Positions 35,873-40,727 of a stretch of 64,000 nucleotides of DNA are shown here, piece by piece. The stretch is from Portibacter lacus. Its GTDB lineage: Bacteria > Bacteroidota > Bacteroidia > Chitinophagales > Saprospiraceae. The DNA is taken from contig NZ_JAJNKA010000003.1 of the NCBI RefSeq assembly GCF_021533215.1, positions 186,001 to 250,000 on the forward strand, read 5' to 3'. The notes below the pieces were generated by a model. The model saw nothing but the letters and a program-made list of their open reading frames with translations, was not told where the DNA came from and made no database searches. The stretch's first letter is position 1, and the number at the start of each line of letters is the position of its first letter. The translations under genes and the position numbers were made by a program.

Positions 35873-36670
35873 TTAAGCAAATAAAATTGATACATCTGAT
35901 TTCGCTATCAACTTTTTGACTCTAGAGTTATCGTTAGACTTATTCTTTTCAGCATCATTTCTCTTCACAAATAGTAAGTTCACTTTACTTCTTGACAAAT
36001 AATTAGATATAGAATTTACAGCCTGATCATTTTGTTCAAATACGTATTCTATGGCTTTCTTTGTATTCAATGGGTTGCTTTCTCTCAGATCTTCTTCGTG
36101 CTGCAAGACTTTAAAAGATCTTAGTGGCATTTCTGTTTTCTCCATTAAATTTTCCACAAGCTCAGAGCTAAAAGATTCTTTACGACTATTTAAAAGACCT
36201 AAAGTAAGTTCATTACTATCTTTCAATGTGTTTTTCTGATCTGCTATCATTATTAAACCTGGATGCTTTTGCAAAACAAAATCGGTGATACTGTCACCTA
36301 TAAAATTTATGAGCTTAGGTCTTCTTTTACCTAATACTATAATATCAGGCTGATTCTGATCAATAAAGGATGCTAACTCCTTCTTTACATTGCCAAATGC
36401 AAAACTGAATTTCACATCAATATTACTTTCTTCATTAATAGGCTCAATAAGTTTAATCAACTTTTGCCTAGTCAATATATGCTGATCCTTTAATGATCTT
36501 ACAGCGGTTAATTGATTATCTCTTTTGATAATTTCCACTAGACTTTTTACATTAAACACTTCTATATCGCCATTAATTATTTTGGCTAATTTTAAAGTAC
36601 TCTTTATGGTTTCACTAGCAGACTTTTTCAAATCAGTAAATACTGCTATTTTATATTTTTTATTTTTCAT
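35873..36670 (-). CDS. Universal stress protein (UspA family)
   Basis: A 265-residue protein with one recognisable Usp domain (about 5-145) and a degenerate second half (150-265), the usual two-domain layout of Bacteroidota Usp proteins. The ATP-loop position reads IIVLGKRRPKLINFIGDS; the second Gly of the G-x2-G-x9-G pattern is Arg, so nucleotide binding may be weak. It starts 6 bp after the SulP stop, so it is the downstream partner of the transporter and may report or control its activity. Confidence 0.87.
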   Translation of the reverse strand: MKNKKYKIAVFTDLKKSASETIKSTLKLAKIINGDIEVFNVKSLVEIIKRDNQLTAVRSLKDQHILTRQKLIKLIEPINEESNIDVKFSFAFGNVKKELASFIDQNQPDIIVLGKRRPKLINFIGDSITDFVLQKHPGLIMIADQKNTLKDSNELTLGLLNSRKESFSSELVENLMEKTEMPLRSFKVLQHEEDLRESNPLNTKKAIEYVFEQNDQAVNSISNYLSRSKVNLLFVKRNDAEKNKSNDNSRVKKLIAKSDVSILFA

Positions 36671-36675
36671 AATTT

Positions 36676-38268
36676 TTAACTTAAGCTTAAACTAGATTTT
36701 GGTTTTTCATTAAAAAATCGAATAAAACTGGAAGGGTTTTCGACAATGCCTCTTTTAGAAATCAATTTAATATCAATGTCTCTTTCTTCAGCTTTATAAA
36801 GAAAGTCCTCTAAAATTTCAATAATATCATAATCCAGATACCTTGTTTTAATAAGATCAATCTCTAGAAAAGTGTTTCTTGGCAGACTATCTAATTCTTT
36901 TAGAATAGCACCTTTATTTATAAAAGTTACTTCCTCTGCTAAAGTCATCTTTATTTTATGCTTGCCATTACTTTTATCCTCAATATTAAGAAAATGTGAG
37001 TTTTGGTAGCTTTTTAGAAGTATAACAACAATTCCTACCATTAGACCTAATCCTATTCCTACAAGGAGATCTGTGAAAATAATACCAATTACAGTAACAA
37101 AAAATGGAATCGATTGCTTCCAGCCTAGATCATACATTTTCTTAAAAAGTGATGGTTTTGCTAATTTGTAACCAACCAGTAATAAAACTGCAGCCAAAAC
37201 AGATAACGGAATTTTATTCAATAAGCTAGGAATAAGAATGACAGAGATTAACAAAAGAAAACCATGTAAAATGGTGGATAATTTTGATTTACCTCCCGAT
37301 TGAACATTTGCAGAACTTCTTACAATTACTTGAGTTATTGGAAGCCCTCCTATCAATCCAGAAATAATATTACCTGTACCCTGTGCTAATAATTCTCTAT
37401 TTGTAGGAGTAACGTTTTTATCAGGATCAATTTTATCAGAAGCTTCCACACACAATAACGTTTCTAGACTGGCTACTAATGCTAATGTAAAAGCAACTAT
37501 CCAAACTTCATGGTTAGAAATCGCTGCAAAATTTGGAAAACTAAATTGACTAATAAAAGAATTAAAATCTTCAGGTACAGGAACACTTACCATATGATTG
37601 GATCCTATTGCAAAAACTTCATGATCCTGGGTCAAAATATAAAATATGATTCCAAGTACAACCACTACGAACGGCCCTTGAATCAATTTAAATATTTTAG
37701 ATTTATGTGACAATATCCTATCCCAAAGAATCAAAAGTAGCAAGCTGACAATGCCTATCAATGCTGCTCCAGGATGTATATTACTTAACATCGTAAAGAG
37801 CTCAGAGAAGGTATTTCCTCCATCAATCTCAAAAAATTCAAGATCCCAAGCCGATTCTTCATCGTAACCAAAAAAGTTAGGAATCTGCTTAAGAATAATG
37901 ATGATTCCAATCCCTGTAAGCATACCTTTAATTACAGAAGAAGGAAAATAGTATCCAATAACTCCAGCTCTTAAAAACCCAAATATCAATTGGATTACAC
38001 CACCTAGAACAACTGCAACTAGAAAATTCTCATAACCACCTAAACTTCCTATAGCAGTTAATACAATCGCAGCTAAACCAGCCGCTGGACCGCTGACTCC
38101 GACTTTAGAACCACTTAATCCTCCAACAACAATTCCGCCAATAATTCCAGCAATTAAACCAGAAAATAATGGTGCTCCACTTGCTAGTGCTATTCCTAAG
38201 CACAATGGCAGGGCAACGAAAAATACAACGATACTTGCGGGCAAGTCGCTTTTTAAATTTTTAAACAT
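36676..38268 (-). CDS. SulP-family anion transporter with STAS domain
   Basis: A 530-residue inner-membrane transporter. The ATG at 38268 (MFKNLKSDLPAS) is the family's normal start; a TTG nine codons upstream is less likely. About 12-14 membrane segments carry the family marks VALPLCLGIALASG, SGPAAGLAAIV and ETLLCVEASDKIDP with GLIGGLPITQVIVRSSAN. A STAS domain occupies about 430-520. Members carry sulfate, bicarbonate or other anions; Bacteroidota proteins of this type are often paired with carbonic anhydrase and thought to move bicarbonate, but none is present here. Operon with a small membrane protein upstream and a Usp downstream. Confidence 0.92.
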   Translation of the reverse strand: MFKNLKSDLPASIVVFFVALPLCLGIALASGAPLFSGLIAGIIGGIVVGGLSGSKVGVSGPAAGLAAIVLTAIGSLGGYENFLVAVVLGGVIQLIFGFLRAGVIGYYFPSSVIKGMLTGIGIIIILKQIPNFFGYDEESAWDLEFFEIDGGNTFSELFTMLSNIHPGAALIGIVSLLLLILWDRILSHKSKIFKLIQGPFVVVVLGIIFYILTQDHEVFAIGSNHMVSVPVPEDFNSFISQFSFPNFAAISNHEVWIVAFTLALVASLETLLCVEASDKIDPDKNVTPTNRELLAQGTGNIISGLIGGLPITQVIVRSSANVQSGGKSKLSTILHGFLLLISVILIPSLLNKIPLSVLAAVLLLVGYKLAKPSLFKKMYDLGWKQSIPFFVTVIGIIFTDLLVGIGLGLMVGIVVILLKSYQNSHFLNIEDKSNGKHKIKMTLAEEVTFINKGAILKELDSLPRNTFLEIDLIKTRYLDYDIIEILEDFLYKAEERDIDIKLISKRGIVENPSSFIRFFNEKPKSSLSLS

Positions 38269-38361
38269 ATCAAAATGAATATTAGGCTCTACCAAGTTCC
38301 AGATAGAGCAATTAATAATAATGTGTTGATTACGCTCTTTTTATAAGAAAGAACATTTAAA

Positions 38362-38661
38362 TTATGATATGGCTAAATCTGGCGGAGGAGAAAAAATAAT
38401 GAGAAAGGGTGTGCTGTATCTAATATTACAATAATTTAATCTATTCTTTGAACGAGAAGGATCCAAGTCAAAATTGTTTCCAAATGATGAGAAATATACT
38501 TTCAACTTTTTCCCATGACCATTTTCTTCTTCTTCAGGAAATGAAAAAATAATGGAAATGTCTGCAGAATTGCTAGCTATAACTACTATAGTAGGTGCAA
38601 CTAAAGCAAAAATAAAAAGCATCGAAAATACTATTGTGAATTGTTTCCTAGACACAAACAT
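38362..38661 (-). CDS. Small membrane-anchored protein of unknown function upstream of SulP
   Basis: A 99-residue protein with one N-terminal hydrophobic segment (about 9-30), an acidic stretch (FPEEEENGHGKK), and a C-terminal hydrophobic end with YSTPFLIIFSPPPDLAIS. The Pro-rich ending preceded by a hydrophobic run is a pattern I associate with small exported Bacteroidota proteins placed next to ion transporters, but I cannot name a family. It starts in front of SulP with a 93-bp gap; a minus-strand TACTTTTG at 38806-38813 could be the promoter of the unit. Confidence 0.6.
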   Translation of the reverse strand: MFVSRKQFTIVFSMLFIFALVAPTIVVIASNSADISIIFSFPEEEENGHGKKLKVYFSSFGNNFDLDPSRSKNRLNYCNIRYSTPFLIIFSPPPDLAIS

Positions 38662-39054: not shown

Positions 39055-40083
39055 CTATTCAAAGAAGTTATCGTATTGATTCTTTCTATTATCAGCTAAT
39101 TCCGGCTTAGCTTTAGAAATAGGCGCTCCTAGATCTAGTATATCTTCATCATTGTTCGCTTGAACCAATAACTTCGCTTTATCATCTCCTAGCAGAATAG
39201 ACATTCCGTCATTTTCCCATTTCTCCAACATCTTAAGTCCTTCCTCTTCGAAAATACCATTCTGAAGATCTAAGGATTGCATAAAATTTTGAGATACTTC
39301 CATAAACTGCTCCATCTCCCCTACTTTCTGGCTTACATCATCCGCAACGGCCTCTAGCGCTCTGTCAAACATTTCCTTCTTGTCCTTATTACCACTGATG
39401 ATATTCATTGCAGACTTCATCGCAGAATTACTGGCCAAAATTGCTTTTCGCTCTTGTTCTTTTACTTCGACTTGATCTTCTATATCTTCCTTCATGATTT
39501 CAGAATTCTCGTACATTTTCCCAAGAACTCTATACAGCACTTCCATTTTCTTATACAAGTCCTCAAGCCTCATCGTAGATTCTTTTAACCTACCAGCTTT
39601 CCTACTCTTAAGGACCATTACTGCATTGTTGTTATTATCTCGTGCCTCACTTGCCAAACTCAGATTATTGTCAATCTCCTTCTTGTTGTTGATGATCATT
39701 TCCTTCAACTTATGCATCTGGCCTCTCAATTGAGTCACTTGACGATTCATTTTCTTCAAGTTATCTTTCAAGTCATCAACATAATTCTTCAGGATGCCTA
39801 TCGGATCGATCTGAATAAACATTCCAGTAATCCACCTCATTACACTCTTATACATGTAACTAACCAGACCTCTCGCTTTAGGATCTATCGCTGTGAAAAT
39901 GATTGCTCCTAAAACCAGCAACGTCACTACTAAACCTACCGTACTTGAAACAAAAGCTATCAGAGCATTTAAAAAAGTGGTTGCTAAAATTCCACCTCCT
40001 ACTAATAATGCAATAAGAAAGAACATTCCTGTCTTTCCTTCTGGCCTTTTCCAAAATGATTTCTTTTTGTACTCTTCACTCAT
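39055..40083 (-). CDS. Membrane-anchored coiled-coil protein resembling PspA/Vipp1 (ESCRT-III-like)
   Basis: A 342-residue protein. Two hydrophobic segments (about 19-41 and 43-66) are followed by a basic amphipathic stretch (68-92) and a long helical region (95-295). The helical part follows the PspA order: a first hairpin (LKNYVDDLKDNLKKMNRQVTQL), a segment ASEARDNNNNAVMVLKSRKA that aligns in position with the PspA DLARxAL helix, then LEDLYKKMEVLYRVLGKM and SNSAMKSAMNIISGN. The tail (300-342) is acidic. A membrane-anchored PspA-like protein would be a membrane-repair or stress scaffold; this is inference from pattern, not a proven family match. It is translationally coupled (ATGA overlap) to the gene at 40080-40727. 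Confidence 0.75.
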   Translation of the reverse strand: MSEEYKKKSFWKRPEGKTGMFFLIALLVGGGILATTFLNALIAFVSSTVGLVVTLLVLGAIIFTAIDPKARGLVSYMYKSVMRWITGMFIQIDPIGILKNYVDDLKDNLKKMNRQVTQLRGQMHKLKEMIINNKKEIDNNLSLASEARDNNNNAVMVLKSRKAGRLKESTMRLEDLYKKMEVLYRVLGKMYENSEIMKEDIEDQVEVKEQERKAILASNSAMKSAMNIISGNKDKKEMFDRALEAVADDVSQKVGEMEQFMEVSQNFMQSLDLQNGIFEEEGLKMLEKWENDGMSILLGDDKAKLLVQANNDEDILDLGAPISKAKPELADNRKNQYDNFFE

Positions 40084-40727
40084 GTTGTCAAATATTTATT
40101 CATTCTTTCTATATCATTACTTATCTGATCAGAAACACTCTTATAAGATGCAATAAACTCATCTCTTGTCTGGGCAACTTTAGCAGAAGCCTCATTTATT
40201 TCATTTTTCTTAAGCTCAAACTCTTTTTTAGAATTCTTTATTTCTTCTTGAAGCTTTTTTATTTGTTCTTCTTTCTTCTTAATAGAAGATTCAATCGAAA
40301 TTAACTTTTCTTGGCGAATACCTACTTGTTTGTGCTGTTGTTTTTCATAAGCATCATTAAATTTAGACTCTTCCGTCTTAAGGATGCTTAAATAATGATT
40401 AGCAGAATCAATAAGGATCTTTTTATTCGCTCCCATAGTTTTAGCCATTGCAAATGCAGAATTAAACTTTGTTGCTTCATCCATATCCATCTGAGATAGT
40501 GATTTCAATGACTGCTTATATTCTAAGTAATCGAAACCTTCCAGGTTATTACTTTCGATGGCTTTAAGAAGATTAGTAATAAATTTATCAGATGATTTCG
40601 CATTCTTATTAATAGGGACATCGTTAATAATTGGTTTTTTCTTCGCTTCAACTTTCTTTGGGGCAGTTGGAGTGTTATTTTCCTCTTCAATGATGAATAA
40701 TGATTTTAACCTTTTGAGCATGGGCAT
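40080..40727 (-). CDS. Coiled-coil protein coupled to the PspA-like gene
   Basis: A 215-residue cytoplasmic protein. A short basic N-terminus and a disordered linker (to about 45) are followed by a compact helical domain (47-125) with GFDYLEYKQSLKSL and FNSAFAMAKTMGANKKIL, then an uninterrupted coiled coil (128-212) rich in Lys and Glu. I do not recognise a named family. The last four bases overlap the start of the PspA-like gene, so the two are made together and in fixed order. A second ATG at codon 3 is equally possible as start. Confidence 0.75.
   Translation of the reverse strand: MPMLKRLKSLFIIEEENNTPTAPKKVEAKKKPIINDVPINKNAKSSDKFITNLLKAIESNNLEGFDYLEYKQSLKSLSQMDMDEATKFNSAFAMAKTMGANKKILIDSANHYLSILKTEESKFNDAYEKQQHKQVGIRQEKLISIESSIKKKEEQIKKLQEEIKNSKKEFELKKNEINEASAKVAQTRDEFIASYKSVSDQISNDIERMNKYLTT

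Follow-up and report, generated by a model that had tools for sequence, protein, structure and literature searches.

Two overlapping genes and their predicted architecture

Within the window (the whole 64,000-nt stretch of Portibacter lacus DNA analysed here), two genes on the reverse strand overlap by the four bases ATGA. As the sequence-only reading had claimed, one of them encodes a 215-residue coiled-coil protein and the other a 342-residue protein with two membrane helices; lengths, positions and overlap were all reproduced. We refer to the longer protein as mPspA and to the shorter one as the partner. The features of the two genes are listed below.

39055..40083, − strand: mPspA gene, encoding a 342-aa membrane-anchored PspA/ESCRT-III-like protein (ORF, 45 related loci, AlphaFold2, Foldseek, PF04012 matches on relatives)
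39886..40029, − strand: mPspA membrane hairpin, residues 19–66 (hydropathy, flanking sequence, helices 14–46 and 48–66)
39814..39882, − strand: mPspA amphipathic helix at the place of PspA alpha-0, residues 68–90 (predicted helix; helical moment ~0.45)
39802..39807, − strand: mPspA DP motif, residues 93–94 ([DN]P in the family), at the start of the first long helix (alignment A2; PF04012 matches begin at profile position 22 or 23)
39637..39804, − strand: mPspA alpha-1-like helix, residues 94–149 (AlphaFold2)
39400..39627, − strand: mPspA alpha-2/3-like helix, residues 153–228 (AlphaFold2)
39274..39384, − strand: mPspA alpha-4-like helix, residues 234–270 (AlphaFold2; 17 invariant columns in A2)
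39190..39246, − strand: mPspA alpha-5-like helix, residues 280–298 (AlphaFold2)
39061..39075, − strand: mPspA C-terminal motif YDNFF, residues 337–341 (pattern [YF]xx[LIF][LIF] near the end of a predicted disordered tail)
40080..40083, − strand: ATGA overlap of the mPspA and partner genes (four bases, coding strand)
40080..40727, − strand: partner gene ('coil'), encoding a 215-aa coiled-coil protein (ORF, family alignment of 38, co-occurrence)
40695..40724, − strand: partner short N-terminal helix, residues 2–11, family consensus MLKKLKSLFIVEDE (A3 alignment, AlphaFold2)
40437..40589, − strand: partner small three-helix domain, residues 47–97 (AlphaFold2; 10 of the 19 invariant A3 columns)
40089..40424, − strand: partner long helix, residues 102–213 (AlphaFold2)

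Hydropathy placed two adjacent membrane segments in mPspA (at about residues 19–41 and 46–66) and none in the partner, and the AlphaFold2 model of mPspA (mean pLDDT 64) comprised helices at residues 14–46, 48–66, 68–90, 94–149, 153–228, 234–270 and 280–298. Because several lysine or arginine residues lie in the flanks of the membrane hairpin, both of its ends would be expected to face the cytoplasm. The sequence-only reading had also pointed to a central DLARxAL-like segment; this amounts to a loose likeness by eye (residues 153–166), and the [DN]P motif, in which P94 is the only residue invariant in alignment A2, makes the better PspA-like mark. The short N-terminal helix of the partner, whose amphipathicity is not outstanding (helical moment rank 56 of 205), may contact the membrane. 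Neither the 342-aa nor the 215-aa protein scored above any cut-off in Pfam or NCBIfam, and routine annotation would thus miss both genes.

Both genes are conserved far beyond chance. Relatives of mPspA at 55–91% identity were recovered from 45 loci of other genomes (counts over these loci exclude the window, L046, which is the window again, and L047), mostly of Saprospiraceae, the remainder stemming from other Chitinophagales/Chitinophagia, Flavobacteriaceae and unplaced Bacteroidota; the closest relative is that of Portibacter marinus (L001). The mPspA alignment (A2) omits L026 and L027 (ambiguous start site), L037 (a near-copy) and L039 (gene cut by the contig end), and the partner alignment (A3) omits L037 together with the seven loci whose fetched DNA contains no partner, L003, L005, L006, L016, L024, L028 and L039.

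Likeness of mPspA to PspA and ESCRT-III proteins

PspA follows a helix plan running from alpha-0 to alpha-5, and the helices predicted by AlphaFold2 downstream of the mPspA hairpin come in the same order. A Foldseek search, which the sequence-only reading had proposed as a check, indicated the Vipp1/PspA/ESCRT-III group, with Vipp1 in the lead: Vipp1, PspA, CHMP1B/IST1 or Asgard ESCRT-III structures accounted for 13 of the first 14 and 23 of the best 50 of 379 matches, at weak E-values (best 0.06; 0 of 379 at 0.001), with large rmsd and from a model with a mean pLDDT of 64. For the partner, Foldseek returned no match below E 1.3.

Applied to 248 whole genomes from the order, the PF04012 profile yielded 40 matches at E ≤1e-3, comprising 10 ordinary PspA proteins above the curated cut-off (33.9 bits) and 30 matches below it. 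Of these sub-threshold matches, 27 lay in mPspA genes, all beginning at profile position 22 or 23, which in the alignments is the place of the [DN]P motif; the other three fell in other genes. We regard this as the strongest line of evidence for homology because whole genomes were on offer and 27 of the 30 sub-threshold matches picked mPspA in one register. The copies reaching the profile at 1e-3 are a minority of the family (27 of 143), and the best-scoring mPspA relative stays under the cut-off either way, with 30.5 bits when scanned as an ORF and 33.1 bits in the scan of its genome. Within A2, 9 of 42 members matched PF04012 at 0.05, the best of them at 4.7e-6, the lowest E-value among the families listed; AATF-Che1 matched more members (12 vs. 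9), at weaker E-values. The 342-aa protein of the window had no PF04012 match in the Pfam scan and is thus not counted in that Pfam family. Among nine distant members scanned, six had no match at 0.05 and three did, two at 3.5e-7 and 9.8e-7 and the second mPspA copy of the source genome at 0.0037, with one of the three scoring slightly higher for another family.

Profile–profile comparison of A2 with seven ordinary Bacteroidia PspA sequences (a set that leaves out L094, for which an antisense ORF had been picked) gave E 5.8e-4, or 6.4e-5 once distant members had been added; the register agrees across alpha-0 and alpha-1, and reversed-profile controls gave E 0.03–0.19. This line is weak because the partner family scores alike against the same PspA set (E 6.7e-4), and the likeness obtained with A2 only was dropped as evidence, the coiled-coil partner scoring equally. 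Searches of PDB sequences with the single protein and with profiles returned only coiled-coil-like or other weak matches, and with the mPspA-family profiles no PspA or Vipp1 appeared at E 1. The partner's Pfam matches to coiled-coil families (CCDC93, ATG14, TolA_bind_tri and others; 68 families, each in at most 11 of 38 members) were put down to coiled-coil likeness.

On balance, the PspA reading of the 342-aa protein holds. With its two membrane helices, the window's mPspA is not a peripheral protein as PspA/IM30 is; this is no bar to membership in the ESCRT-III superfamily, since TM-bearing relatives are mentioned in PMC11237479.

At its C-terminus, after an unconserved tail, mPspA carries the pattern [YF]xx[LIF][LIF] within the last 15 residues. 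The pattern was present in 55 of 55 mPspA sequences, being kept even in members at ~20% identity, and in none of the seven ordinary Bacteroidia PspA proteins; the background frequency was 19 in 181 genes of at least 150 aa from thirteen loci, mPspA genes included. Its appearance suggests a docking motif. ESCRT-III proteins engage the MIT domain of Vps4 through their C-terminal tails, and by analogy the mPspA tail may be comparable to these.

Pairing with the partner and genomic context

The partner was found in the fetched DNA at 38 of the 45 loci, in nine of them more than 2 kb upstream of mPspA with other genes between; each of the seven genomes whose locus has no nearby partner carries a copy elsewhere (7/7). 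Across 248 genomes of the order, mPspA occurred in 83 and the partner in 86, with 81 genomes harboring both (Fisher p 2e-56). Co-occurrence, the second check proposed beforehand, is thus nearly without exception. The two mPspA-only genomes were G586, whose copy contains an internal stop, and G557, with a match at E 8.5e-6, and the five partner-only genomes gave weak partner matches (9.4e-12 to 7.9e-20). As to position, 105 of 125 partner copies lay upstream of mPspA, on its strand and at most 1 kb away, the match ends being a median of 67 bases apart; for 38 of 143 mPspA copies, no partner was this close. A phylum-wide set of 296 genomes yielded mPspA in nine and the partner in nine, seven of which were shared; a closer look revealed the partner to adjoin mPspA in G162 and G072 and a diverged mPspA to adjoin the partner in G198, and in G186 the partner was present with no mPspA seen beside it. 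The partner of L082 and the mPspA of L119 are known by local comparison only and stand outside the 296-genome counts. Within the source family, mPspA was found in 62 sampled genomes, and none of that family was among the 20 no-match genomes listed. A plasmid search with two mPspA queries gave no match. With the fold search and this near-exceptionless co-occurrence, a membrane-anchored PspA relative with a dedicated partner, as the sequence-only reading had suggested, stands as the best reading.

That reading had described a two-gene module, and in the window no AAA+ ATPase gene lies beside the pair. What it had missed is that many relatives carry the pair as part of an ABC-transporter operon with a binding protein–OmpA fusion, usually accompanied by an ABC permease and an ATPase. 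An NMT1/SsuA/urea-type binding protein fused to OmpA was located downstream of the pair in 39 of the 45 loci, among them L016 with a binding protein fragment only; of the six loci without it, L003 and L028 had DNA too short to judge. The permease was present in 36 loci, and 10 of the 45 have an AAA protein resembling SpoVK/CbbX. At 1e-20, the binding protein–OmpA fusion was detected in 45 of the 248 genomes, all 45 of which have the pair, and 42 of 49 binding protein copies follow an mPspA gene at a distance of at most 1.5 kb; the fusion was missing from 38 of the 83 genomes with mPspA. Divergent mPspA members also come with the transporter (L071, L072, L082 and L119, the last with an AAA+ gene too), though L070 has none. 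The source genome carries the pair twice and had no binding protein–OmpA match at 1e-20, its only matches being to the OmpA part.

On the upstream side of the window's pair lie three genes that, from their sequences, we take to encode an arginine-deiminase-like protein, a thioesterase and YihY; of the 45 loci, 10, 16 and 12, respectively, carry an upstream relative, and the transporter-bearing loci L008 and L010 carry relatives of all three. Because these upstream neighbours are shared with transporter-bearing loci, the window copy of the pair seems to occupy the ancestral place. In a phylogenetic tree, the window copy groups with Saprospiraceae copies, most of them transporter-bearing (support 94/95), and the second copy of the source genome with transporter-free copies (88/79), both supports lying just under the tool's mark for firm support. 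The transporter label requires eight changes on this tree, and loss of the transporter in the Portibacter lineage is probably the simpler reading.

Downstream of the window's pair, at the place taken by the ABC transporter in many relatives, lie two genes (35873–38295, − strand) that presumably encode a SulP-like transporter and a universal-stress-like protein, as judged by sequence; at E 1e-10, the related loci contained no match to either of them. A putative 99-aa ORF (38362–38661, − strand) with one hydrophobic stretch by eye is situated between the pair and the SulP-like gene. The second copy of the pair (L081 8172–11999, G000:C5) is found between genes for glycerol-3-phosphate dehydrogenase and a chromate transporter, and its partner, 183 aa in length, is without the family's N-terminal part; many source-family genomes have partner matches that begin near model position 50.

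Related loci showed further variants. The binding protein–OmpA fusion is replaced by a Ppx/GppA-like protein in L070 (8329–9396), where Pfam gave no match, and in L120 (10311–11336), where the Pfam match had E 0.0074. The N-terminal membrane anchor of the Ppx/GppA-like protein resembles, by eye, that of the fusions, and this common anchor may be what the scaffold recognises. Ten of the 45 loci (L025, L031–L038 and L040), and L070 as well, encode near the operon a membrane protein of ~167 aa from a family with no Pfam match (e.g. L031 4696–5199 and L070 7736–8239).

A probable membrane-anchored scaffold, its rivals and known systems

From the genes and their conservation, the predicted helix order and fold likeness, the PspA-profile register, the pairing, the operon context and the tail motif, we consider it probable that the pair encodes an anchored PspA/ESCRT-III scaffold with an obligate partner, which would hold or gate an importer where one is present and which stands alone in the source lineage. 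Under this model, mPspA would be a PspA/ESCRT-III-family protein with a membrane hairpin ahead of alpha-0 to alpha-5. The hairpin would fix it in the inner membrane with the helical domain on the cytoplasmic face, and that domain could polymerise as PspA and Vipp1 do. The 215-aa partner, in which a long helix carries a small helical domain, might join or cap the polymer, and the aromatic motif of the mPspA tail could dock a further protein, much like the C-terminal tails of ESCRT-III. In the operon-bearing relatives, the scaffold would hold or gate the ABC importer, whose binding protein would be tied to peptidoglycan by its OmpA domain, with the AAA ATPase helping in some. In the source lineage, the transporter is absent, probably through loss, and the two-gene scaffold would remain, in two copies. 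The complete picture, namely an integral scaffold of the ESCRT-III family that holds or gates a peptidoglycan-anchored ABC importer, with an obligate partner, a tail that docks other parts like a MIT-interacting motif and, since the scaffold could be retained alone after transporter loss, a function of its own, is offered tentatively, as a possibility.

The main rival holds that the pair is the Bacteroidota counterpart, not homologous, of the TelA module, protecting the envelope against toxic anions or peptides with an ABC export/uptake arm. Such a TelA-like role in envelope defence is conceivable, if doubtful. On Vibrio plasmids, an OmpA-domain binding protein, a permease and an ATPase cluster with TelA (PF05816, 4.3e-50) and with a 257-aa protein that, by eye, has two N-terminal membrane segments, and an xpaC/telA-like operon of Listeria is described as induced along with phage-shock genes (PMC12791056). 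However, even at E 10 neither of the two proteins has a TelA match, TelA is absent among the 25 families listed for A3 and for A2, and a non-PspA identity would leave the PF04012 register of mPspA unexplained.

Alternatively, in keeping with the sequence-only reading, the pair could be a plain two-gene envelope-stress module in which the anchored PspA replaces ordinary PspA and the link to the transporter is incidental. In line with such replacement, none of the 62 source-family genomes with mPspA is among the 10 that have ordinary PspA above the cut-off, and only one of the 10 has mPspA too; the pair also often occurs without the transporter, given the 38 of 83 mPspA genomes lacking the binding protein. 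Yet the near-exclusion of ordinary PspA may only reflect lineage, the transporter link recurs in the very divergent members L071, L072, L082 and L119, and the binding protein was never found without the pair (45 of 45 genomes), so we judge this module unlikely. A generic membrane-anchored long coiled-coil protein with a convergent likeness to PspA would fit the weak mPspA model, the absence of a PDB sequence match and profile–profile scores near those of the coiled-coil partner. What makes it quite improbable is that proteins other than mPspA supplied only three of the 30 sub-threshold PF04012 matches, that the mPspA matches fall in one register, and that the reversed-profile controls reached no lower than E 0.03.

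Most work on PspA, Vipp1 and ESCRT-III treats them as peripheral proteins recruited to membranes. In Bacillus, an SPFH protein is described as needed to bring PspA to the membrane (PMC8581546). The anchored scaffold favored here, as a membrane-fixed version of PspA that occurs near one-to-one with a partner and often with an importer, would connect transport with the remodelling of membranes, and the transporter-free two-gene system would offer a simple setting for the scaffold's own role. mPspA resembles PspA/Vipp1 (IM30) in the predicted alpha-0 to alpha-5 order, the [DN]P before the first long helix and the in-register profile matches, but differs from them by its N-terminal membrane hairpin, its C-terminal aromatic motif, its scores below the cut-off and its near-obligate second gene. 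PspB, PspC and PspF did not turn up among the neighbour genes scanned.

The TelA clusters (PF05816) likewise feature a two-TM helical protein and a helical cytoplasmic protein beside a binding protein–OmpA fusion and ABC genes, but no sequence relation to mPspA or the partner was seen in Pfam scans. In Bacillus, an XpaC-like two-TM protein occurs together with TelA. The Vibrio plasmids L100 and L101 bring together TelA, a vWA protein, a urea-type binding protein, a permease and an ATPase (by annotation, and by Pfam for L100), and their clusters contain two binding proteins, one or both with OmpA domains.

A literature search, judged by titles and abstract openings, found no paper describing this pair of mPspA and partner, and the sequence-only reading had been unable to place it in a named system. 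It is not wholly unplaced, though, as a 2024 survey (PMC11237479) mentions similar operons, in which PspA/Snf7 homologues with TM segments (e.g. OGG56892.1) are encoded with an ABC ATPase, a permease, a PBPB+OmpA protein and an AAA+ ATPase. In a Bacteroidetes genome (CBH24266.1), the same survey notes, PspA and Snf7 have a third coiled-coil gene next to them, possibly a related one. Compared with these operons, the window copy is without an adjoining transporter, and the excerpts of the survey make no mention of the partner with its small helical domain, of the second paralogue or of the tail motif; the TM-PspA/Snf7 operon is nevertheless of the same kind as the one to which the pair belongs in many relatives of the window's pair.
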